From positions 1 through 44,580 of the forward strand of contig CAIYSL010000127.1 of the NCBI GenBank assembly GCA_903928915.1: 44,580 nt of DNA. The letters run 5' to 3'. The position numbers and the translations under genes are program-made. Source of the stretch: an uncultured Syntrophobacterales bacterium. GTDB taxonomy: Bacteria; Desulfobacterota; Syntrophia; Syntrophales; UBA5619. Below are positions 12,365-29,309 of the stretch, in pieces; positions within the stretch are counted from its first letter, which is position 1; each line of letters starts with the position of its first letter. The notes below the pieces were generated by a model, which ran no database searches, had not been told where the DNA came from, and saw only the letters and a program-made list of their open reading frames with translations.

Positions 12365-13717
12365 TTACATCCCCCACTCCTTCTTGAACAGTGCCTCCAT
12401 CTCCCGGCGGAATTTCACCGCGGCGTCCCCCTCGTCAAAAGTCACGTCGTCCCACCGGACTGTCTGCCCCGCGGCGATCGGGTTGGCGAGCTTGACCCCG
12501 TGGGCGAGCCCGATCGGCAGCGAGCCGGCGGCGACGGAGGCGCGGGCCGGCAGGAGCGTGCCGTAGACGGTGAAGCCCCCCTCGCCGTCGAGGGTCTCAC
12601 CGGCGTTGAGGTCCCGCTTCGCCGTGGCCACGACGTCGCCGGTAAATCCCCGCGCCGCCCCGGTCGGTTCGCCGCGGAGCGCCACCGAGGCCACGCTGAC
12701 CCCCAGCTCCAGGCCGATCAGATGCGCCGGCCGGTACAGGGCCGAATACCGGCCGCTCCCGTCGGTCGCGACGCCGTATTCGCTGAAGCAGCGGGCGGTG
12801 TAGGGGTTGTCGGTGGTGAAGGTGACGTACACCCCCCAGCGCAGGTCGCGGTACACGGGCCGTCCGTCCCGCTCCAGGGAGGAGACGACCTCCACCTGCC
12901 CCGGTGCATCCAGAATCCCCCCCGCGGCGCGGGGCGTGAGGATGCAGGCGAGGTCGTCGGCCCCGCAGGGCGGAAACCGGAGGCCCGCGTCCGGCGGGAC
13001 GAGTCCGGTGGCGTTGGCCACGGCGGCCATCTCGATCGCCGATTTGGTCCCGTCGAGGAAGGAGTTGAACATCTTGGCGTTGAAGTCCCCCTGTGCCAGC
13101 TGCTCGGCGGTAAACCCGTAGTAGTCCCACACCGTGTCGGGCGTCGAGGCGTGGTACGCGGGAAGGTACTTCGTCCCCTTGCCCGCGGCGACCACGGTGA
13201 ACCCGCAGGCCCGGGCCCAGTCCACCTGCTCGCAGATCAGGGCCGGCTGGTCGCCGTAGGCCAGGGAGTAGACGATCCCCGCCTCTGCGGCCCGCCGGGC
13301 CAAAAGCGGCCCCGCCAGGGCGTCGGCCTCGACGTTGACCATGACGATCGGCTTCTTGCTGCGGCAGCAGGCCAGGACGTGGGCGATCCCCGCGGCGGGG
13401 TTTCCCGTGGCGTCGATCAGCACGTCGAGAGGATCGGCGTCGATCAGGGCAAGGGCGTCGTCGGTGAGGAAGGTGGTGCCCCGGGCCAGGGCGTCGGCCA
13501 GCGTCGTTGCATCCCCCTGGCCTTCCGGCCAGCCGGTCCGCGCGAGCGCGTCGACGGCCCGCCCGGGGGCGAGGTCGGCGATGGCGGCCAGGTGGATTCC
13601 CGCGGTGGCCTTGGCCTGGGCCAGGTACATGCTGCCGAACTTGCCGGCGCCGATCAGCCCGACCCGGAGGGGGCCCCGTTCCCGGGCGCGGTTCGTCAGG
13701 AGCGCGTGGAGGTTCAT
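12365..13717 (-). CDS. COG4091-like NAD(P)-dependent oxidoreductase with C-terminal SAF domain
   Basis: A 450-residue protein resembling the predicted homoserine dehydrogenase-like family with a C-terminal SAF domain. The Rossmann motif LRVGLIGAGKFGSMYLAQAK is at about residues 17-36. A central DYYGFTAEQLAQGDFNAKMFNSFLDGTKSAIEMAAVANATGL region is typical of the family. The C-terminal part contains DVVATAKRDLNAGETLDGEGGFTVYG, the SAF (antifreeze/FlgA-like) fold that binds sugar-acid-like ligands in altronate hydrolases. It lacks the usual homoserine dehydrogenase organisation, so calling it a threonine-pathway enzyme would be wrong. The start ATG at 13717 overlaps the amidase stop by four bases. 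Members are often near branched-chain or sugar-acid catabolic genes; the reaction is not established here. Confidence 0.82.
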   Translation of the reverse strand: MNLHALLTNRARERGPLRVGLIGAGKFGSMYLAQAKATAGIHLAAIADLAPGRAVDALARTGWPEGQGDATTLADALARGTTFLTDDALALIDADPLDVLIDATGNPAAGIAHVLACCRSKKPIVMVNVEADALAGPLLARRAAEAGIVYSLAYGDQPALICEQVDWARACGFTVVAAGKGTKYLPAYHASTPDTVWDYYGFTAEQLAQGDFNAKMFNSFLDGTKSAIEMAAVANATGLVPPDAGLRFPPCGADDLACILTPRAAGGILDAPGQVEVVSSLERDGRPVYRDLRWGVYVTFTTDNPYTARCFSEYGVATDGSGRYSALYRPAHLIGLELGVSVASVALRGEPTGAARGFTGDVVATAKRDLNAGETLDGEGGFTVYGTLLPARASVAAGSLPIGLAHGVKLANPIAAGQTVRWDDVTFDEGDAAVKFRREMEALFKKEWGM

Positions 13718-15039
13718 GGCGTTTCCCTCCAGCCGGGGAAGCGGAAGCGCCCTTCGCACCACCGGGCCGCGGCGAGGAGATCGCCGTCCTTCCCCTTCCT
13801 GCCGACGAGCTGCAGCCCCAGCGGCAGCCCCCCGGGGCCGAACCCCGTCGGGATCGTTACGGCCGGGACGCCGCAGAGGCTCCAGAGGGAGCAGAAGGCG
13901 GGATTGCCCGTCTGCTGAAGCGTCCGCGGCGCCTCGCCGGTCGTCGGCGGGGTGATGATCGCGTCGTAGGTGAGCAGAAACCGCTCCAGCTCTTCCTGCA
14001 GGGCGAGCCGGAGTTTCAGGGCCTGCAGGTAGGTCACCGAACCCACAGTCTGTCCTTCGGCGACGAAGTCCTTCAGGGTCGCGCTCAGCTGCGGCGCCTT
14101 GGTGCGGACGAGCTCCTCCAGGTTGAAGGCGGACTCGGCGGCCATGATTGTCCGGATCGCGCCGTGGGCGAGCCCGAAGGGCCCGGGCAGTTCGCGCTCC
14201 TCCACCGTGGCGCCGCCCGCCCGCAGCGTTGCGATGTCCTGCTGGAACTGCGCGCGGGCGTGGTCGTCGGCCTGGTCCCAGACCGGGGTCCGGACGGCGG
14301 CCAGCAGCGGAGGGGTCGTGCGGTCGCAGTGCCTCTGCGGGGCGGGCACCCCTTCCTCGGTCAGGGCTGCCGCGAGGAAGGCGGCGTCCTCCACGCTCCG
14401 GGTGAAGACCCCTGCCTGGTCGAGGGTGTGGCTGAAGGTCAGGGCGCCTGCGATCGGGATCGTCGCCTGGGTCGGTTTGAACCCCACGACCCCGCAGTAG
14501 GCGGCGGGCCGGATGACCGAACCGTTCGTCTGGGTCCCCAGGGCGGCCGGGACGAACCCCGCCGCCACGGCGGCGGCGGAGCCGCTCGACGACCCGCCCG
14601 GGGTGTGGAGCGGGTTCCAGGGGTTCATCGTCTTGCCGGGATGGAGGAAGGCGCATTCGGTGGTGACGGTCTTGCCCAGCACGAACCCCCCCTGCGCCGC
14701 CAGCAGTTCCACCGCCCGGGCCGACCGGGTCGGGCGGTGGCCGGCAAAGGCGGGGGAGCCCATCTCGGTGGGAATGCCGGCGGTGGGATAGATGTCCTTC
14801 ACCCCCAGCGGGATTCCCTGGAGCGGGCCGGGGGCCCCGGCAGAGTCAAGCTGGTCGTCGGCGAGCCTGGCCGCGGCCAGCGCCTGCTCCGGGTTGAGCC
14901 AGGTCCAAGCCTGGATCCCGCCGTCGAGCGCGGCGATCCGCTCCAGGAGGGCCCGGGTGTACGCCTCGGCGGTGAACCGCCGGTTCCTGATCCCCTGTGC
15001 CGCTTCGATCAGACTCAAGCTGGGCAGCGGTTTATCCAT
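13714..15039 (-). CDS. Amidase-signature family hydrolase
   Basis: A 441-residue amidase-signature enzyme that hydrolyses a carboxamide to acid and ammonia. The Ser-cisSer-Lys triad is complete: Lys81 in GIPLGVKD, cis-Ser150 in the Gly/Ser-rich TPGGSSSGSAAAVAAG segment, and nucleophile Ser174 in GTQTNGSVIRPAA, with the usual 24-residue spacing between the serines. There is no signal peptide, so it is cytoplasmic. The start ATG at 15039 has AGGAGG seven bases upstream. It follows the D-2-hydroxyacid dehydrogenase by 19 bases and overlaps the SAF oxidoreductase by ATGA. It is not GatA of the tRNA amidotransferase: no gatB/gatC is nearby and the operon is catabolic. The amide substrate is unknown, possibly a hydroxyacid amide, ureido compound or allophanate-like molecule. 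Confidence 0.9.
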   Translation of the reverse strand: MDKPLPSLSLIEAAQGIRNRRFTAEAYTRALLERIAALDGGIQAWTWLNPEQALAAARLADDQLDSAGAPGPLQGIPLGVKDIYPTAGIPTEMGSPAFAGHRPTRSARAVELLAAQGGFVLGKTVTTECAFLHPGKTMNPWNPLHTPGGSSSGSAAAVAAGFVPAALGTQTNGSVIRPAAYCGVVGFKPTQATIPIAGALTFSHTLDQAGVFTRSVEDAAFLAAALTEEGVPAPQRHCDRTTPPLLAAVRTPVWDQADDHARAQFQQDIATLRAGGATVEERELPGPFGLAHGAIRTIMAAESAFNLEELVRTKAPQLSATLKDFVAEGQTVGSVTYLQALKLRLALQEELERFLLTYDAIITPPTTGEAPRTLQQTGNPAFCSLWSLCGVPAVTIPTGFGPGGLPLGLQLVGRKGKDGDLLAAARWCEGRFRFPGWRETP

Positions 15040-15058
15040 GGTGTGGCCTCCTGTCTCA

Positions 15059-16027
15059 TTACCCCGCGGGATTCAGCAGATTCGGAGGATTCCCCGTCGT
15101 CAGGGCCGCGACGAGGTTCTCCGCGGCCTTCATCGCCATGTTGAAGCGGGTCCGTTCCGAGGAGCTGGCGATGTGGGGCGACAGGATCACGTTTGCGAGC
15201 TCCTTGAACCCGGGGTGGATCGCAGGCTCCCCCTCGAAGACGTCGAGCCCGGCCCCGGCGATGGCCCCGCTCCTGAGCGCCTCGACGAGGGCCGCGTCGT
15301 CCACGACGCCGCCCCGGGCGGCGTGGATGAGGATCGCCGAGCGTTTCATCAGGCTGATCTCCGGGCCGCCGACGGCATGGTGGGTCTCCCGGCTGTAGGG
15401 GATGTGGATCGTGACGATATCCGCCCGCCGGTAGAGCTCCTCTTTCGGCACGTATGCGGCCCGGCAGGCGGCCTCGACCGCCGGGGCGGCCCGCTGTACG
15501 TCGTGGTAGATCACCTCCATCTCGAACCCGGCGGCGCGGCGGGCCACGGCCTGCCCGATCCGTCCCAGGCCGATGATGCCGAGCGTGGCGTGGTGGACGT
15601 CGAGGCCGAGGAACTGCTTGAGCTTCCACTTGTCCCACCGGCCGTCCCGGACGTACGCCTCGGCCTCGTTGAGCCTGCGGGCGGTGGCCAGGATCAGGGT
15701 CCAGGCGAAATCTGCGGTGGTGTCGTCCAGGACCCCGGGGGTGTTGGTCGCCATCACCCCGTGGCTGCTGCAGGCGGCCAGGTCGATGTTGTTGTACCCC
15801 ACGGCGATGTTGCAGACCGCCTTGAGGCGGGGGCACCGGCCCAGGAGGGGCTCATCGATCCGTTCGGTGAGCGTCGTCATGGCCCCGTCCTTATCGGCGA
15901 GGACTCGGGCCAGCTCCTCGGGGCTCAGGACGCAGTCCTCCTGGTTGGCCTGAACCGTGAAATGGGGCGCCAGAAAATCCAGGACCTCCGCAAAGACCTC
16001 GCGAGCGACATAAACGTTCTTCTGCAT
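15059..16027 (-). CDS. D-isomer-specific 2-hydroxyacid dehydrogenase (glyoxylate/hydroxypyruvate reductase-like)
   Basis: A 322-residue NAD(P)-dependent dehydrogenase interconverting a 2-oxoacid and its D-2-hydroxyacid. The nucleotide-binding motif is LGIIGLGRIGQAVARR (GxGxxG at 153-158). The catalytic set Arg238 (HAARGG), Glu267 (VFEGEP) and His285 (SPHIAS) is complete, and NIAVGYNNIDL is the substrate-binding loop of the GyaR/GhrB group. The ATG at 16027 was chosen for GAGGAA upstream and the fit to family length; the open frame runs on to 16477 without homology. It is the first gene of the operon reaching 10583, and is divergent from the amidohydrolase gene at 16353. Confidence 0.92.
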   Translation of the reverse strand: MQKNVYVAREVFAEVLDFLAPHFTVQANQEDCVLSPEELARVLADKDGAMTTLTERIDEPLLGRCPRLKAVCNIAVGYNNIDLAACSSHGVMATNTPGVLDDTTADFAWTLILATARRLNEAEAYVRDGRWDKWKLKQFLGLDVHHATLGIIGLGRIGQAVARRAAGFEMEVIYHDVQRAAPAVEAACRAAYVPKEELYRRADIVTIHIPYSRETHHAVGGPEISLMKRSAILIHAARGGVVDDAALVEALRSGAIAGAGLDVFEGEPAIHPGFKELANVILSPHIASSSERTRFNMAMKAAENLVAALTTGNPPNLLNPAG

Positions 16028-17394: not shown

Positions 17395-19071
17395 ATGGAA
17401 ATTCTCTTCCGCATGACCCAGGCGATGTCCGTTTTTGTGGTCGTCGCCTACATCTGCTGCAAGTCGCCGCTGCTTCGCTCCCTCACCGCCGATGCGGTCC
17501 GGGCGCGCGATCGGGTGTATCTGTACCTGGTCTTCTCGGCGCTGTCGATCCTGGGCACCTACCTGGGCGTCCCGGTCCACGACGCCATCGCCAACACGCG
17601 GGCCATCGGCCCGGTGCTGGCCGGGATCATCGGCGGGCCGCTTATCGGAACCGCGGTGGGGTTCACCGGCGGGCTGCACCGGTATTTCCTGGGGGGGTTC
17701 ACCGCTTTTTCCTGCGGTCTTTCGACGACGGTCGAAGGGGCCATCGGCGGGATGGTGCATCTGTATCTGTACCGGAGAAACCGTTCGGAGCGGATCTTCG
17801 CTCCGGAGGTGGCCTTCATCACCGCCTTCTGCGCGGAGATCGTCCAGATGGGCATCATTCTCCTCGTGTCGCGGCCGTTTGCCAATGCGGTGACGCTGGT
17901 GGAAGTGATCGCCCTCCCGATGATCCTTTCGAACGCCGCCGGTGCGGCCCTGTTCATGAGCATCATCCGCGATCAGAAGAACACGGTCGACCGGATCGGC
18001 GCGGTCTCCTCCGCGAAGGCGTTCAAGATCGCGGAGCGGACGCTGAACATCCTCGTGCGGGGGATCACCGCCGAATCGGCCGTGGCGCTGGCGAAGATCA
18101 TCCATACGGAGACCGGCGTCGGTTCGGTCGCCATCACCGACAAGGAGAAGATCCTCGCCTTCCTCGGCCAGGGCGCGGACCACCATATCCCCGGCAACCC
18201 CATCGCGTCGTCCTTTACCAAGGAGGCCATCGCCGAAAACAAGGTCATCTTCGCCGCCGACGGGAAGGAGCGGTATGTCTGCCCGCTCGCGGCCGACTGT
18301 CCGATGACCTCGGTCCTGGTCGTTCCGCTCCACATCGACAACGACGTGATCGGCACGATCCAGCTGTTCGAGCCCAGGAACAAACGCTTCCTCAACATGA
18401 ACAAGACGCTCGGCGAGGGGATCGCGCGCCTGCTGTCGAACCAGCTGCTCCTCGCCCGCTACGAGATGCAGAAGAACCTCCTGGTGCAGTCCGAGCTGAA
18501 ACTCCTCCAGGCCCAGGTCAACCCCCACTTCCTGTTCAACTCCCTGAACACGATTATCGCCATCCTCCGCATCGACGCTGCACGGTGCAAAGACCTGCTC
18601 ATCCATCTGTCCAACTTTTTCCGGAAGAACCTCAAGCGCGCCGGCGACCTGTCGACGCTCGCCGAGGAGCTCGACCAGGTGAATTCATACCTGCAGATCG
18701 AGAAGGCGCGGTTCGACGACCGGCTGGCGATCGACGTGGACATCGATCCTTCGCTGCTCAAGGTGATCCTTCCCACCTTCACCCTCCAGCCGCTCGTGGA
18801 AAACGCCTTCAAGCACGGGATCTCCCAGACGATGGGGCAGGCGGTGGCGCGGATCAAGGCCTTTCGGGCAGACGGCTGGGCCTTCGTGGAGATCGAGGAT
18901 AACGCCGGCATCTTCCACGAAAAGGAGACCGACGACGGCCACGGGATCAAGATCGTCGACCGGCGGCTCAAGGGACTCTTCGGCAGCGATTCCGGGATTT
19001 CGATTGCCTGCGTGCCGCACGAGCTGACCCGGGTCACCGTAAAGATCCCCCTGGAGGCCCAAGCGGCATGA
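17395..19071 (+). CDS. LytS-type sensor histidine kinase (5TMR-LYT, GAF, HisKA_7TM-type HATPase)
   Basis: A 558-residue membrane kinase. Residues 5-195 form the LytS five/six-helix receptor domain, recognised by DAIANTRAIGPVLAGIIGGP and GFTGGLHRYFLGGFTAFSCGLS. A GAF domain spans about 205-350 with an ERYVCPLAADCPMTS centre. The phospho-acceptor His378 lies in LQAQVNPHFLFNSLNT. The ATP-binding N-box is LQPLVENAFKHG (about 464-475) and the G-box is DDGHGIKIVDRRL. Relatives (BtsS, YpdA) sense pyruvate, and LytS senses membrane state; the receptor here probably reads a small carboxylate or the proton-motive force. The ATG at 17395 lacks a strong ribosome site, although GGGAGG occurs further upstream. 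The response regulator overlaps by ATGA, and a TRAP transporter operon follows. Confidence 0.95.
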   Translation: MEILFRMTQAMSVFVVVAYICCKSPLLRSLTADAVRARDRVYLYLVFSALSILGTYLGVPVHDAIANTRAIGPVLAGIIGGPLIGTAVGFTGGLHRYFLGGFTAFSCGLSTTVEGAIGGMVHLYLYRRNRSERIFAPEVAFITAFCAEIVQMGIILLVSRPFANAVTLVEVIALPMILSNAAGAALFMSIIRDQKNTVDRIGAVSSAKAFKIAERTLNILVRGITAESAVALAKIIHTETGVGSVAITDKEKILAFLGQGADHHIPGNPIASSFTKEAIAENKVIFAADGKERYVCPLAADCPMTSVLVVPLHIDNDVIGTIQLFEPRNKRFLNMNKTLGEGIARLLSNQLLLARYEMQKNLLVQSELKLLQAQVNPHFLFNSLNTIIAILRIDAARCKDLLIHLSNFFRKNLKRAGDLSTLAEELDQVNSYLQIEKARFDDRLAIDVDIDPSLLKVILPTFTLQPLVENAFKHGISQTMGQAVARIKAFRADGWAFVEIEDNAGIFHEKETDDGHGIKIVDRRLKGLFGSDSGISIACVPHELTRVTVKIPLEAQAA

Positions 19072-19778
19072 TGCGCGCCCTGATCGTCGACGACGAGGTG
19101 TACGCCCGCCAGGAGATGGAGACGATGCTGGCGGAAACCGGAGAATTCATCGTCGCCGGGAAATGTGCCAACGCCCTGGAAGCGATGCAGGCCATCAGGA
19201 AGGAACGGCCGGACGTCCTGTTCCTCGACGTCCAGATGCCGGTGATCAACGGGTTCGAACTCTTGGGCATGATCGATACGGAGGCCATGCCGCAGGTCGT
19301 GTTCGTCACCGCCTATGACGAGTACGCCCTCAAGGCCTTCGAAGAGAACGCCCTCGACTACCTGCTCAAGCCGGTGGAAAAAGGAAGGCTCGCCAAGACC
19401 GTGGAGAAGCTGAAGCGGCGGTTCGCCGAGGGCAAGCGGCCGGTGTTCGCGGGCCCGGCGATCCAGAAGATCCCCTGTCTCCAGTCCGGCAAGATCAAAC
19501 TCATCTCTCCCGCCGAGGTCGAGTACGTAAGATCCTCGGAGACGGGGGTGCACGTGGTCTGTCCGGCCGGCGAGTTTTTCACCGAACTCACCCTCCAGAT
19601 CCTGGAGACGAGGACGGGCCTGCTGCGGTGCCATAAGCAGTACCTGATCAACATCGATCTGGTGGATGAGATCATCCTCCGGGAAAACATGCTCGCCGAC
19701 ATCAAGACGAAGTCGGGCCACCTTGTCCCGGTGAGCCGGAGATACCTCCGGGTTCTCCGGGGAAGACTGAACTTTTGA
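19068..19778 (+). CDS. LytTR-family response regulator
   Basis: A 236-residue response regulator. The receiver domain (1-120) has the acidic pair Asp8/Asp9, the phosphorylation site Asp54 in LFLDVQMPV, and the conserved Lys in YLLKPVEKGR near 102. The C-terminal LytTR domain (about 135-236) has EVEYVRSSETGVHVV and LLRCHKQYLINIDLVDEI, the fingerprint of this DNA-binding fold. It overlaps the kinase gene by ATGA, showing a cognate pair. LytTR proteins bind imperfect direct repeats about two helical turns apart. The region immediately downstream, before the TRAP operon, contains CGTAGCACCGA twice with 20-bp periodicity, which makes that operon the best candidate target. Confidence 0.95.
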   Translation: MMRALIVDDEVYARQEMETMLAETGEFIVAGKCANALEAMQAIRKERPDVLFLDVQMPVINGFELLGMIDTEAMPQVVFVTAYDEYALKAFEENALDYLLKPVEKGRLAKTVEKLKRRFAEGKRPVFAGPAIQKIPCLQSGKIKLISPAEVEYVRSSETGVHVVCPAGEFFTELTLQILETRTGLLRCHKQYLINIDLVDEIILRENMLADIKTKSGHLVPVSRRYLRVLRGRLNF

Positions 19779-19873
19779 TTGCCGGTCGGCGGGGCGTATC
19801 GACCGCTCAGGCCATGCCGCGACCGGTCGGCTGATTCCGTGCGCCGCCCTCCCCCGGGAAGGGATATTTTCGC

Positions 19874-19903
19874 TTGACAAAGCTCGATTCCGGATATTAG
19901 TAT
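19874..19903 (+). promoter_or_regulatory. Candidate sigma70 promoter upstream of the TRAP operon
   Basis: A perfect TTGACA (19874-19879) is followed after 18 bases by TAGTAT (19898-19903). If used, it gives an mRNA leader of about 310 bases that includes the direct repeats, so it would suit a regulator acting downstream or an additional, closer promoter. Confidence 0.5.
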
Positions 19904-20074
19904 CAACCACCTATCAGGAAGATGTCCCGATTTAAGTGATTAATATAATTTAACAATCTTCCCCTCCTGCTCTTCGCCGGCGGGATGATTGAGGCGAGAT
20001 ATTAACCACGGTTCAGAAACGCTCGACAGGGAAGCGGCGCCCCTGTCCCCTGTCTCAATGCACTCTGGCTCAAA

Positions 20075-20145
20075 CGTAGCACCGATGAGGTTTCCGTAGC
20101 ACCGAGGGGTTCTTCCAACCGATGAAACGAAACCGTAGGGTTTCG
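20075..20145 (+). promoter_or_regulatory. Tandem direct repeats, putative LytTR operator
   Basis: CGTAGCACCGA occurs at 20075-20085 and 20095-20105, exactly 20 bp apart and on the same helical face. ACCGATGA recurs at 20119-20126. A palindrome CGAAACC-GTAG-GGTTTCG follows (20128-20145). Paired direct repeats two helical turns apart are the known binding mode of LytTR regulators, and a LytTR gene ends 297 bases upstream. The assignment is inference from spacing and context, not from a known consensus. Confidence 0.55.
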
Positions 20146-20218
20146 GAGACGGTCGTGTGGGTTGTCGGACGAATGCAGGCAGTCATCGTTTTTACCAACT
20201 GACAGGAGGAGGGAAATT

Positions 20219-21397
20219 ATGACGAAAAAAGAACTGGAGACGAACAAGGGTGTGTCGCGCCGCAACTTTCTTACCGCCGCCGCGGTGACCGCCGGGGCTG
20301 CAACGCTGGGATTCCCGTCGGTCCTCAAGGCGCAGGGGCCCGTCAGCATGCGGTGGCAGAGCACCTGGCCGACCAAGGACATCTTCCATGAGTACGCCCT
20401 CGACTTCGCCAAGAAGGTCAACGACATGACCGGCGGCGATCTCAAGATCGAAGTGCTGCCGGCGGGCGCGGTGGTGCCGGCCTTCGACCTCCTGAATGCC
20501 GTTTCCAAGGGGACGCTCGACGGCGGCCACGGCGTGTTCGTGTACCATTATGGCAAGAACAACGCCCTGTCCTTGTGGGGGTCGAGCCCCGCCTACGGGA
20601 TGGACGCCGACATGCTGCTGTCCTGGCACAAGTACGGCGGCGGCAAGGAGCTGTTCCAGAAGGTCTACGATGCGATCGGCGTCAGCGTCAAGTCTTACGC
20701 CTACGGCCCGATGTGGACCCAGCCGCTGGGCTGGTTCAAGAAGCCCATCACCAAGGCCGATGACTTCAAGGGCCTGAAGTTCCGCACCGTGGGGATCTCG
20801 ATCGACCTGTTCAAGGGGATGGGCGCGGCGGTCAACGCGCTGCCCGGCGGCGAGATCGTCCCGGCCATGGACCGCGGCCTGCTGGATGGGGCCGAGTTCA
20901 ACAACGCCTCCTCCGACCGCCTCCTGGGTTTCGCGGACGTGTCGAAGGTGTGCATGCTCCAGAGCTACCACCAGAGCGCGGAAAGCTTCGAGATCCTGTT
21001 CAACAAGGCAAAATTCGACGCCCTGCCGGCCAAGATGAAGGCGATCATCGACAACGCCGTGGAGGCCGCGTCGGCGGACGTGACTTGGAAATCGATCGAC
21101 CGCTACTCGAAGGACTACGTCGAACTGCAGACCAAGGACAAGGTGCGGTTCTACAAGACGCCGGATGCGATCCTCCAGAAGCAGCTCGAAATCTTCGATA
21201 CCGTCGAGAAGGACTATTCGGCCAAGAACCCGCTGTTCAAGGAGATCGCCGAATCGCAGCGGAAATTCGCCGAGCGGACGGTGAAATGGAAGCGGGACTA
21301 CGTGGTCAGCCCGACGTTGGCCTATAACCACTACTTCGGCAGGAAGGCCGCTGCCGCGAAGGCAGCCCCTGCCAAGGCGGAGCCGAAGAAGAAGTAG
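20219..21397 (+). CDS. TRAP transporter DctP-family solute-binding protein with Tat signal
   Basis: A 392-residue periplasmic receptor of a tripartite ATP-independent transporter. The N-terminus has a twin-arginine signal, SRRNFL at residues 13-18, then AAAVTAGAATLGF, so it is exported folded. The mature part begins near SMRWQSTWPTKDIFHEYALDFAKKV. It contains the ligand-binding region FKGLKFRTVGI with the conserved Arg that salt-bridges the substrate carboxylate, and overall resembles TakP/lactate-type receptors for 2-oxo or 2-hydroxy acids. The C-terminus is an Ala/Lys-rich tail. The ATG at 20219 follows AGGAGGAGGG; upstream in-frame codons lie in the leader. dctQ follows after a terminator-like hairpin. 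Family is certain; ligand class is moderately supported. Confidence 0.95.
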   Translation: MTKKELETNKGVSRRNFLTAAAVTAGAATLGFPSVLKAQGPVSMRWQSTWPTKDIFHEYALDFAKKVNDMTGGDLKIEVLPAGAVVPAFDLLNAVSKGTLDGGHGVFVYHYGKNNALSLWGSSPAYGMDADMLLSWHKYGGGKELFQKVYDAIGVSVKSYAYGPMWTQPLGWFKKPITKADDFKGLKFRTVGISIDLFKGMGAAVNALPGGEIVPAMDRGLLDGAEFNNASSDRLLGFADVSKVCMLQSYHQSAESFEILFNKAKFDALPAKMKAIIDNAVEAASADVTWKSIDRYSKDYVELQTKDKVRFYKTPDAILQKQLEIFDTVEKDYSAKNPLFKEIAESQRKFAERTVKWKRDYVVSPTLAYNHYFGRKAAAAKAAPAKAEPKKK

Positions 21398-21469: not shown

Positions 21470-22096
21470 ATGAATAAATTTCTGTTCACCGTCGACAGGT
21501 TCAGCACCTTCGTGGGCACGGCCTTTTCCTGGCTCATCGTCTCGCTCACCTTCCTGATCACCTACGAGGTGTTCGCGCGGTACTCGCTCGACGCACCGCA
21601 CGACTGGGCCTTCGACCTGATGCTCCAGATGTACGGGATACTGTTCATGATGGCGGGCGCCTATACGCTGTCGAAGAACAACATGGTCCGCGGCGACGTC
21701 CTGTACGGCTTCTTCCCGCAGCGGGTGCAGGCCGGCCTCGACCTGACGCTCTACATCCTCTTCTTCCTCCCCGGCGTGACCGCCCTCTGCTGGGCCGGAT
21801 ACACCTATGCCCGGGAAGCCTGGGCGATCTGGGAGCACTCGGGCATCACCGCCGAAGGCCCGCCGATCTACCATTTCAAGACCATCATCCCCATCGCCGG
21901 AGCGTGCATCCTCGTGCAGGGGATCGTCGAGATGATCCGCTGCGTCATTTGCCTCAAGCAGGGAAAGTGGCCCTCGCGCATCCAGGACGTCGAGGAGGTC
22001 GACGTCGAGAAACTGAAGGCGACCGTGCAAGTCACCGATGAGGATATCGCGAAGCTCGATCAGTATGTGACGCACGCAAAAGGGGGCGACAAATGA
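21470..22096 (+). CDS. dctQ: TRAP transporter small permease DctQ
   Basis: The 208-residue four-helix small membrane subunit. Helices appear at about 12-35 (TFVGTAFSWLIVSLTFLITYEVFAR), 48-68, 90-112 and 135-160. The motif EVFARYSLDAPHDWAFDL after helix 1 is typical of DctQ. The ATG at 21470 was chosen because the alternative in-frame ATG (21443) lies inside the hairpin. The ribosome site (AGGA) is modest, which fits lower expression than the receptor. The C-terminal 50 residues are charged and cytoplasmic, slightly longer than usual. It overlaps dctM by four bases (ATGA). Confidence 0.93.
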   Translation: MNKFLFTVDRFSTFVGTAFSWLIVSLTFLITYEVFARYSLDAPHDWAFDLMLQMYGILFMMAGAYTLSKNNMVRGDVLYGFFPQRVQAGLDLTLYILFFLPGVTALCWAGYTYAREAWAIWEHSGITAEGPPIYHFKTIIPIAGACILVQGIVEMIRCVICLKQGKWPSRIQDVEEVDVEKLKATVQVTDEDIAKLDQYVTHAKGGDK

Positions 22097-24033
22097 AGAA
22101 AGAAGCCTGGTTTGGATTAACGATTATGGCACTGGTGGTGACCGGTGTCTTTGTGATGATGCCCCCGTTTAGCCAGTGGACGAACGGCCATCTGGGCCTT
22201 TTGATGCTGGCGATGATCGTCATCGCGATCATGCTCGGCTTTCCCACCGCCTTCACCCTGATGGGCATGGGTTCGATGTTCGCCTTTTTCTGTTATTACG
22301 GCCAGGACCCGAGTTCGGCGGTGAACCAGACCCTATACCTCGTGGCGCAGCGGGCCTTTGCCGTCATGAACAACGACGTTCTGATCTCGATCCCGCTGTT
22401 CGTCTTCATGGGGTACCTCGTCGAGCGGGCCAACCTGATCGGCATGCTCTTCAAGAGCCTCCACCTGGCCACCACCCGGATCCCCGGGTCGCTCGCCGTC
22501 GCCACGGTCATCACCTGCGCGATCTTCGCAACCGCCACCGGGATCATCGGCGCCTGCGTCACCTTGATGGGACTGCTCGCCTTTCCGGCGATGCTCAAGG
22601 CCGGATACAGCATCCGCCTCTCGGCGGGTGTCGTGACCGCGGGGGGAACCCTCGGCATCCTGATCCCGCCTTCGGTCCTGCTGATCCTCTACGGCGCCAC
22701 CGCCGGCGTTTCGGTCGTCCAGCTCTACGCCGGGGCCTTTTTGCCCGGGTTCATGCTGACGGGCCTGTATCTGGGCTACATCATCCTCTCCGCGAAGCTG
22801 AAACCCAGCATCGCCCCGCCCCTCTCCGCGGAAGAGCAGCGGGTCGAGCTGCCCAGGTTCGCCGAGGCGATCTCGCAGAAGACCGACAACGTCATGGTCG
22901 GGTTGATCGGGGCGCTCAAGGGGAAGCGGAACGCCGACGTGCCGATGAAGACGCTGCTCAACCATCTGATCATCGCCCTTCTCCCGGCGCTCGCGGCCGC
23001 GTCCATTGTGTTGGTGATCTGGCTCTGGACGACGGCGCCGACCCTGATCGACACGGCGGGTGTCCAGGAGATGGGTTTTGCGGCGGAGGAGTCCGGCGCC
23101 CAGGCCCCGGCCGAGGTCGGTGGGCTTGCCGAACCGGAGGGAGCCGGAGGCTTGGCGGAGCCCCCGGCCGAACCGACGCCGGAGGCGCAGGCTGCCCCCG
23201 CTGAACCGGCGCAGCCGCAGCCTCCTGCCGCGCAGGCCGCGCCCGCGCCCGCGGCTGCACCCGGCCGCAATCCCGCCCCCCTGGCCTTCTGGATCACCTT
23301 CGGCATCGTCGCGGTCGGGACGGTCGTCTTCTATGTGATCTTCACCTTTGCCCGTCTCGAGATCTTCAAGATGCTCCTCGGGTCCTTCTTCCCGCTGGCC
23401 CTGATCATCCTCGGGGTCTTGGGGACGATCGTCGTGGGGCTGGCAACGCCGACCGAGGCGGCGGCCATGGGGTCCTTCGGGGGGTTTGTCCTGGCGGCGG
23501 CGTACAAACGGCTCAATTTCACCGTCGTCAAGGAGTCGGTGTTCCTCACCGCAAAGACCTCGGCCATGGTCTGCTGGCTCTTCATCGGCTCGAGCATCTT
23601 CGCGGCGGCCTTCGCCCTCCTCGGCGGCCAGGAGATCATCAACGACTGGGTGAAGTCGATGAACATGACGCCGACCCAGTTCATGCTCCTGGCGCAGGTG
23701 ATCATCTTTCTCTTGGGTTGGCCCCTGGAGTGGACCGAGATCATCGTCATCTTCATGCCGATCTTCATCCCGCTTTTGGGACACTTCAACATCGACCCCC
23801 TCTTCTTCGGGCTCTTGGTGGCCCTGAACCTCCAGACGGCGTTCCTCTCGCCGCCGGTGGCCATGGCCGCCTTCTACCTGAAGGGGGTGGCGCCGCCCCA
23901 CGTGACGCTGAACCAGATCTTCGTCGGGATGCTGCCCTTCATGGTAATCCAGTGTTTGGCGATCTTTCTGCTGTACATGTTTCCGCAGATCGGTCTGTGG
24001 GTGCCGTCGTTGGTCTATAGCAGCGGCGGATGA
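22093..24033 (+). CDS. dctM: TRAP transporter large permease DctM with long central insertion
   Basis: The ion-coupled transport channel of the TRAP system. Conserved DctM segments are at both ends: AIMLGFPTAFTLMGMGSMF, NDVLISIPLFVFMGYLVERA, ATGIIGACVTLMG and GTLGILIPPSVLLILYGA in the N-half, and GLATPTEAAAMGSFGGFVLAA plus LGWPLEWTEIIVIFMPIF in the C-half. At 646 residues it is about 200 longer than a classical DctM (about 430). The extra material (roughly 245-425) contains a charged stretch, a membrane helix (about 291-312), an Ala/Pro/Glu-rich low-complexity linker (about 330-395) and a second helix (about 397-420). The frame is uninterrupted, so it is not a frameshift artefact. It is the third TRAP gene; two small membrane protein genes follow. 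Confidence 0.95.
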   Translation: MKKEAWFGLTIMALVVTGVFVMMPPFSQWTNGHLGLLMLAMIVIAIMLGFPTAFTLMGMGSMFAFFCYYGQDPSSAVNQTLYLVAQRAFAVMNNDVLISIPLFVFMGYLVERANLIGMLFKSLHLATTRIPGSLAVATVITCAIFATATGIIGACVTLMGLLAFPAMLKAGYSIRLSAGVVTAGGTLGILIPPSVLLILYGATAGVSVVQLYAGAFLPGFMLTGLYLGYIILSAKLKPSIAPPLSAEEQRVELPRFAEAISQKTDNVMVGLIGALKGKRNADVPMKTLLNHLIIALLPALAAASIVLVIWLWTTAPTLIDTAGVQEMGFAAEESGAQAPAEVGGLAEPEGAGGLAEPPAEPTPEAQAAPAEPAQPQPPAAQAAPAPAAAPGRNPAPLAFWITFGIVAVGTVVFYVIFTFARLEIFKMLLGSFFPLALIILGVLGTIVVGLATPTEAAAMGSFGGFVLAAAYKRLNFTVVKESVFLTAKTSAMVCWLFIGSSIFAAAFALLGGQEIINDWVKSMNMTPTQFMLLAQVIIFLLGWPLEWTEIIVIFMPIFIPLLGHFNIDPLFFGLLVALNLQTAFLSPPVAMAAFYLKGVAPPHVTLNQIFVGMLPFMVIQCLAIFLLYMFPQIGLWVPSLVYSSGG

Positions 24034-28687: not shown

Positions 28688-29309
28688 GGGCGATCCGCCG
28701 GCTGTCGCTTTCCGGGAACGGGTATTCCATCTGGCGGGCCGCGGCCCGGGCAACGGCCTGGCCGCAGACGCGGGCGACGATCCGCAGGGTCATGTCGATC
28801 CCCGCGGAGATGCCGGCGGAGGTGAAGAGCCGTCCCTCTTCCACGAAGTGGAGCTGCCGTTCTACGCGGGTCGTGGGGAAAAGCTCCGCCATCCAGTCCA
28901 GGGAGCGCCAGTGCGTGGTCGCACGCTTGCCGTCGAGAAGACCGGCCCGGCCGAGCAGCAGCGCGCCGGTGCAGACCGACGCGAGGATTTCGACTTCTGG
29001 GGCGCGCCCTGCGATCCAGCCGATCAGCCGTTCGTTCCCCATCGCCCTGCGCGTCCCCCAGCCGCCGGGGACGACGAGGATGTCCAGGGGCGGGCAGTCG
29101 TCGAAACCGCACGCGGCCAGGACCTTCATCCCGCCCGCGGTGACGATCGCTTCCGCCCGCTCGGCGACCAGAAAGACGTCGAAGGGGGAAGGTTCCTCCC
29201 GCCGTTTCGCCTCCTCCCGCCGAGCGACGGCAAACACCTCGAAGGGGCCGCAGAAATCCAGGACCTCGACGTCGTCAAACACGAGGATCCCCGTCCGTTT
29301 CCTCTCCAT
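28674..29309 (-). CDS. DJ-1/PfpI superfamily protein (class I glutamine amidotransferase-like)
   Basis: A 211-residue protein with the DJ-1/PfpI fold. GILVFDDVEVLDFCGPFEVF is the N-terminal signature with the conserved acidic residue, and Cys113 in ILASVCTGALLLGRAGLLDGKRATTHW is the nucleophile elbow followed by the usual His. It lacks the C-terminal AraC domain of related regulators, so it is more like an isonitrile hydratase (InhA) or ThiJ-type enzyme. The ATG at 29309 is preferred because AAAGGA precedes it. It is downstream of the Fe-S subunit gene by 104 bases and may be the last gene of that operon. The reaction is unknown. Confidence 0.85.
   Translation of the reverse strand: MERKRTGILVFDDVEVLDFCGPFEVFAVARREEAKRREEPSPFDVFLVAERAEAIVTAGGMKVLAACGFDDCPPLDILVVPGGWGTRRAMGNERLIGWIAGRAPEVEILASVCTGALLLGRAGLLDGKRATTHWRSLDWMAELFPTTRVERQLHFVEEGRLFTSAGISAGIDMTLRIVARVCGQAVARAAARQMEYPFPESDSRRIALPPP

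Follow-up and report, generated by a model that had tools for sequence, protein, structure and literature searches.

The TRAP transporter operon dctPQM of this uncultured bacterium is very likely driven by a BtsS/BtsR-type circuit acting through a three-copy BtsR operator at 19781-19829, directly behind btsR and 52 bp before the dctP promoter. The first-pass annotation had predicted a LytTR operator in front of the same operon at 20075-20145; its prediction very probably holds for the kind of site (phased direct repeats in this intergenic region) but not for the place. The window, the whole stretch of DNA that was analysed, comprises 44,580 nt of contig CAIYSL010000127.1 (GCA_903928915.1, forward strand) and belongs to a genome of 4.34 Mb. 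The features concerned are as follows.

17395-19071, + strand: LytS-type histidine kinase, BtsS-like (Pfam 5TM-5TMR_LYT, GAF and His_kinase)
19068-19778, + strand: LytTR response regulator of the BtsR family (Pfam Response_reg and LytTR; NCBIfam BtsR NF008677)
19781-19829, + strand: predicted BtsR operator, three direct repeats (repeat comparison among loci)
19874-19903, + strand: likely sigma-70 promoter of dctPQM, TTGACA, 18 bp, TAGTAT (promoter scan against shuffles)
20075-20125, + strand: direct repeats of the first-pass annotation, without supported function, private to this genome's dctP leader
20128-20145, + strand: palindrome of the same annotation, a possible but weak 7-bp hairpin in the leader (read from the sequence)
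20219-21397, + strand: DctP, TRAP solute-binding protein with a twin-arginine signal, keto-acid (TakP-like) type (Pfam; solved relatives)
21470-22096, + strand: DctQ, small TRAP membrane subunit (Pfam)
22093-24033, + strand: DctM, large TRAP membrane subunit (Pfam)

The LytS/LytTR pair does lie immediately upstream of the transporter genes, as had been stated; its two reading frames overlap, and DctP, DctQ and DctM follow downstream. It is not, as had also been proposed, an uncharacterised signalling system, because it is a member of the BtsS/BtsR family, which has been studied in E. coli. Specifically, the regulator reaches 319.1 bits with the NCBIfam BtsR model (curated cut-off 246), and the kinase, which shares 48% identity with E. 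coli BtsS across 557 aligned positions, combines the 5TM-5TMR_LYT sensor with GAF and His_kinase domains and keeps R72, R99, C110, S113 and H382 of its E. coli counterpart. The first four residues are needed for pyruvate binding in E. coli BtsS, according to PMC10653868. All four are present in 24 of the 30 sequences aligned with E. coli BtsS (window included, the partial kinase of L045 left out), the exceptions being L037 and L038 (S113 to A), L046, L052, L058 and L059. Pyruvate is less certain as the ligand in L037 and L038, two of the four syntenic relatives described below, because of the alanine at S113; both keep the operator and the TRAP genes, and their ligand may differ. The BtsS-like kinases of L052 and L058 (Malonomonas rubra and a Desulfuromonas MAG) are without both pocket arginines (G/L and S/S), and these loci possess a good operator triple despite this, possibly with a different ligand; a carboxyl transferase gene follows in L058.

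The repeats flagged at 20075-20145 are real. The 11-mer CGTAGCACCGA is repeated exactly 20 bp apart (20075-20085 and 20095-20105), ACCGATGA recurs nearby (starts 20081 and 20118), and the palindrome CGAAACC-GTAG-GGTTTCG occupies 20128-20145. Their description as phased fits the first pair only, because the third ACCGATGA is separated by 17 bp from the second copy and by 37 bp from the first, neither distance corresponding to an integral number of turns of the helix. Of 3000 dinucleotide shuffles of the 440-bp intergenic region, 0.23% contained an exact direct repeat of at least 11 bp with a period of 12-40, making a chance origin unlikely at this place. The whole window holds six such repeats, whereas 20 shuffles gave 0.95 on average, and they are therefore not rare here; the five others, exact 11-bp repeats with periods of 18-36, are located at window positions 29194, 30255, 42867, 13409 and 17658, some of them in likely coding sequence. 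The CGTAGCACCGA 11-mer has no copy beyond these two in the 4.34-Mb genome.

It is extremely improbable that the repeats at 20075-20125 form the operator, or an additional, weaker site for this regulator within the leader. Their 20-bp period fits LytTR sites, and the third half-site alone scores +6.9 with the motif of the relatives, but the other two score -3.8 and -8.2 (against 7.6, 12.0 and 9.4 for the triple at 19781-19829), and the best triple in 20031-20218 scores -9.2, a value equalled or beaten by 681 of 1000 shuffles. Lack of conservation of the pair near homologous TRAP genes, which the first-pass annotation had named as a ground for refutation, was indeed observed: none of the ten other DctP leaders contains it, even with 3 mismatches allowed per 11-mer. 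The -35 element of the likely promoter lies about 200 bp before the flagged repeats, which are thus past the likely transcription start. Their position, their absence from all ten leaders and their poor motif scores together make a role as LytTR operator probably untenable, and they are peculiar to this genome's leader, without supported function.

The best operator candidate is the three-copy repeat directly behind the LytTR stop codon, a predicted site consisting of GCCGGTCG (19781-19788), ACCGCTCA (19802-19809) and ACCGGTCG (19822-19829), with spacings of 21 and 20 bp, about 280 bases upstream of the flagged repeats. The BtsR half-site consensus is ACC[G/A]CT[C/T]A, with a 13-bp gap, and direct-repeat BtsR half-sites about 21 bp apart are present at 19781-19829; the YehT site was reportedly first described in a 2012 paper. 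Four genomes besides the window share the order btsS-btsR-dctP (L037/G012, L038/G001, L039/G003 and L035/G008). When the sequences from the btsR stop to dctP were aligned across the five loci, the direct repeat behind the btsR stop was common to them and the flagged repeats were not. The triple with 21 and 20 bp spacing occurs in all five loci with dctP immediately after the LytTR gene, with scores of 24.8 to 34.6; in G012 the automatic search put its best triple out of register and the 21/20 triple was placed manually, after which a leave-one-out scan returned 21/20. Using a half-site matrix from eight loci of the order, each left out in turn, the window triple scores 28.9 with the window excluded from the matrix, compared with 13.8 for the best site elsewhere in the window, and none of 2000 shuffles of the intergenic region attains even the truncated triple score of 20.4.

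The operator is observed together with btsR at this position. The triple is absent from all six loci whose dctP has no btsR immediately before it (G014-G018 and G020), where the best score over 700 bp ranges from -7.6 to 6.5 and dctP is 72-88% identical to that of the window. Because several of the six genomes are only 74-88% complete, it is less certain that they lack btsR altogether than that they lack it at this position. The promoter at 19874-19903 is the only promoter-like site in 19700-20300 (mean of 0.2 in shuffles), and a CTTGAC element precedes dctP in all four syntenic relatives and, within 510 bp before the gene, in five of the six btsR-less loci. The distance from the third copy to TTGACA varies among the five syntenic loci (52, 52, 68, 152 and 93 bp), which would count against a rigid mechanism.

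Retention of the promoter-like element by dctP orthologues without btsR directly upstream implies that the transporter can be driven without the triple. Together with the fact that the repeat abuts the btsR stop codon, and with a candidate triple in front of LytS in L050, this favours the view that the three-copy repeat serves btsSR itself, by autoregulation or control of the btsR transcript end, rather than dctPQM. We consider this view very improbable, given that in six loci (L040, L041, L043, L048, L051 and L053) the triple precedes a CstA or DctP gene which itself lies ahead of LytS, and that in E. coli it precedes btsT, far from btsSR.

The flagged stretch falls within the inferred transcribed leader, and a short hairpin could form at the palindrome and at the matching place in several relatives, so that the stretch might instead be part of a structured leader RNA, either a riboswitch or an attenuator. 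This explanation is very improbable. A riboswitch or other known RNA was rejected after an Rfam search of the whole window, in which no family reached the gathering score, and no intrinsic terminator was found in 19700-20300. A structured leader was likewise rejected: folding of the flagged stretch is no better than that of shuffles (z-scores of +0.68 and +0.78), and the consensus structure of eleven leaders is negligible (-0.25 kcal/mol, 3 pairs). When the tested leader helix was slid by -3 columns, 93% of cells were paired for 4 pairs, making a 4-bp hairpin possible; the short one that several relatives could form where the palindrome stands is no more than a weak lead. Over the 100 nt that immediately precede dctP, the window (20110-20200) and ten related leaders have short blocks such as GTCGG in common, with or without btsR upstream.

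To return to the predicted BtsR operator, 32 loci (31 BtsR-like ones plus the btsT region of E. coli) were scanned over their full length and on either strand, the reversed sequences serving as control; of the 55 loci in total, near-duplicate Aeromonas loci (L062-L065 and L067-L069) and more distant ones (L070-L091) were left unscored. The highest reversed control, 17.2, was exceeded by 21 of the 32 loci and by 13 of the 24 non-training loci, including E. coli btsT (33.1), and the remaining 11 of the 32 show no clear triple (L042, L044, L045, L047, L049, L054, L055, L057, L059, L060 and L061). Among 18 loci chosen for having a triple, 17 have all copies at 2.3 or above, the first copy of L094 scoring -1.1; every spacing is 20 or 21, the only values permitted, and in none of the 18 does a fourth copy exceed 0.9.

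A 17-operator sequence model that includes the window's site has a single match in the 4.34-Mb genome, the site at 19781-19829 (E 7e-5). With that site removed from the model, it is nonetheless the top match in the window (11.9 bits, E 0.012, filters off), but models lacking the window's own site did not find it in the genome-wide search. An operator model built from outside the order matched 41 of the 155 genomes of the order at E<=1; its three best matches, and five in all, fall at BtsR loci (BtsR is present in 8 of the 155 genomes), and it missed this genome, G003 and G008. The 36 remaining matches, weak and in genomes without BtsR, look like noise.

The closest known counterpart is the BtsS/BtsR-btsT system of E. 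coli, formerly YehU/YehT-yjiY, with which the window shares the kinase and regulator families, the four pyruvate residues, the half-site motif and, at the btsT promoter, three copies 20-21 bp apart. The E. coli K-12 btsT promoter (L096 5410-5466) carries a third BtsR-like half-site, GCCGCTCA, upstream of both ACCGCTTA (by 20 bp) and ACCACTCA (by 41 bp), the latter two forming what we take to be the described BtsR site. Read against this motif, the fragment used as the YehT site of yjiY in PMC4847170 holds all three copies. The E. coli target differs in being a CstA-family symporter, BtsT, encoded elsewhere, whereas in the window a TRAP operon adjoins btsR. In published work, btsT is described as the single BtsR target in E. 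coli (PMC5936718), and BtsR motifs as conserved in most gamma-proteobacteria tested (PMC5552118).

The YpdA/YpdB-yhjX system of E. coli is similarly a LytS/LytTR pair for pyruvate with a direct-repeat operator, but there GGCATTTCAT is present in two copies, as given in PMC4847170, and the window regulator matches the BtsR model. The same source describes two copies, with 11-13 bp between them, as the rule for LytTR sites. Operators with three direct repeats and LytTR-type spacing are described for RcoM1 and CoxC in PMC11347149; unlike the window's pair, these are one-component CO sensors with the motif TTCNNGCA and without a LytS partner. Within titles and the beginnings of abstracts of the open-licence literature, no report was found that links BtsR or LytS/LytTR with TRAP transporters.

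Among proteins of solved structure, the window DctP is nearest to 4yic, 4yzz, TakP (SmoM of Rhodobacter sphaeroides, 2hzk/2hzl), the ketoacid-binding 7ug8, and 4pet, so that keto-acid binders (2hzk/2hzl, 7ug8 and 4pet) are among the best five, as for a TakP-type protein. The TakP ligand residues are Y100, Q156, R177 and W215 according to PMC1839085. In the window DctP, Y100, Q156 and R177 correspond to Y109, Q168 and R189 (alignment counted by hand) and are thus conserved, in contrast to W215, which is replaced by F227; E214 of TakP, which we infer to be a further ligand residue, is also conserved. The TRAP binding proteins of L051 and L056, only about 31% identical to the window DctP, likewise have 4pet, 7ug8 and TakP (2hzk/2hzl) among their best solved relatives. 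The window DctP thus appears closest to keto-acid binders, and a 2-oxo acid is its predicted substrate. This may be a 2-oxo acid other than pyruvate, because the TRAP genes have a gene for a 2-hydroxyacid dehydrogenase nearby (15059-15997; its best NCBIfam match, glyoxylate reductase, stays below the cut-off), as they also do in four of the six btsR-less loci. Amidase and 2-hydroxyacid dehydrogenase genes accompany the TRAP operon in the window (13714-15997), in L037 and L038, and in L132-L135, also without btsSR. DctM has a long proline/alanine-rich run at about residues 320-400, between its two Pfam-matching halves.

Among the loci covered here, a TRAP binding-protein gene is found next to the pair in nine (the window, L035, L037, L038, L039, L048, L051, L053 and L056) and CstA in eight (L040, L041, L043, L049, L061, L066, L060 and L034). 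Other loci have neither among the genes examined; in L094 and L095, for instance, the site is followed by HTH-cupin genes. The genes next to the pair in the window are dctPQM and not those of a CstA-family (btsT) target. In our view the transporter target is variable and does not define the BtsS/BtsR pair.

The BtsR family of the regulator, the pyruvate residues of the kinase and the keto-acid type of DctP lead us to propose a BtsS/BtsR-type circuit for pyruvate or another 2-oxo acid, with a TRAP transporter in place of the usual CstA/BtsT. The BtsS-like kinase would sense extracellular pyruvate or a close 2-oxo acid and, once activated, would phosphorylate the BtsR-like regulator. The latter would bind the three copies from roughly the same face of the helix and activate the promoter at 19874, and with it dctPQM, whose products would act as a cation-coupled TRAP importer of 2-oxo acids. 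More broadly, we give roughly even chances to the combined proposal that BtsR operators are generally three-copy with a 20-21 bp period, from Desulfobacterota-type genomes to E. coli btsT (where GCCGCTCA would be added to the described pair), and that in this order btsS-btsR and the abutting operator form a portable cassette placed before a TakP-like TRAP operon with its own promoter, making its expression responsive to pyruvate or 2-oxo acids.

For uncultured bacteria, these results predict the exact operator of a regulator-transporter pair and point to its likely ligand. They would also connect the TakP-type TRAP importers with BtsS as pyruvate sensor, two 2-oxo-acid systems that have been studied apart. 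Should the third copy prove to matter, the model in which BtsR controls E. coli btsT through two sites would have to be revised. Finally, the paired presence and absence of btsR and the operator suggests how a sensor plugs into an existing transporter operon.
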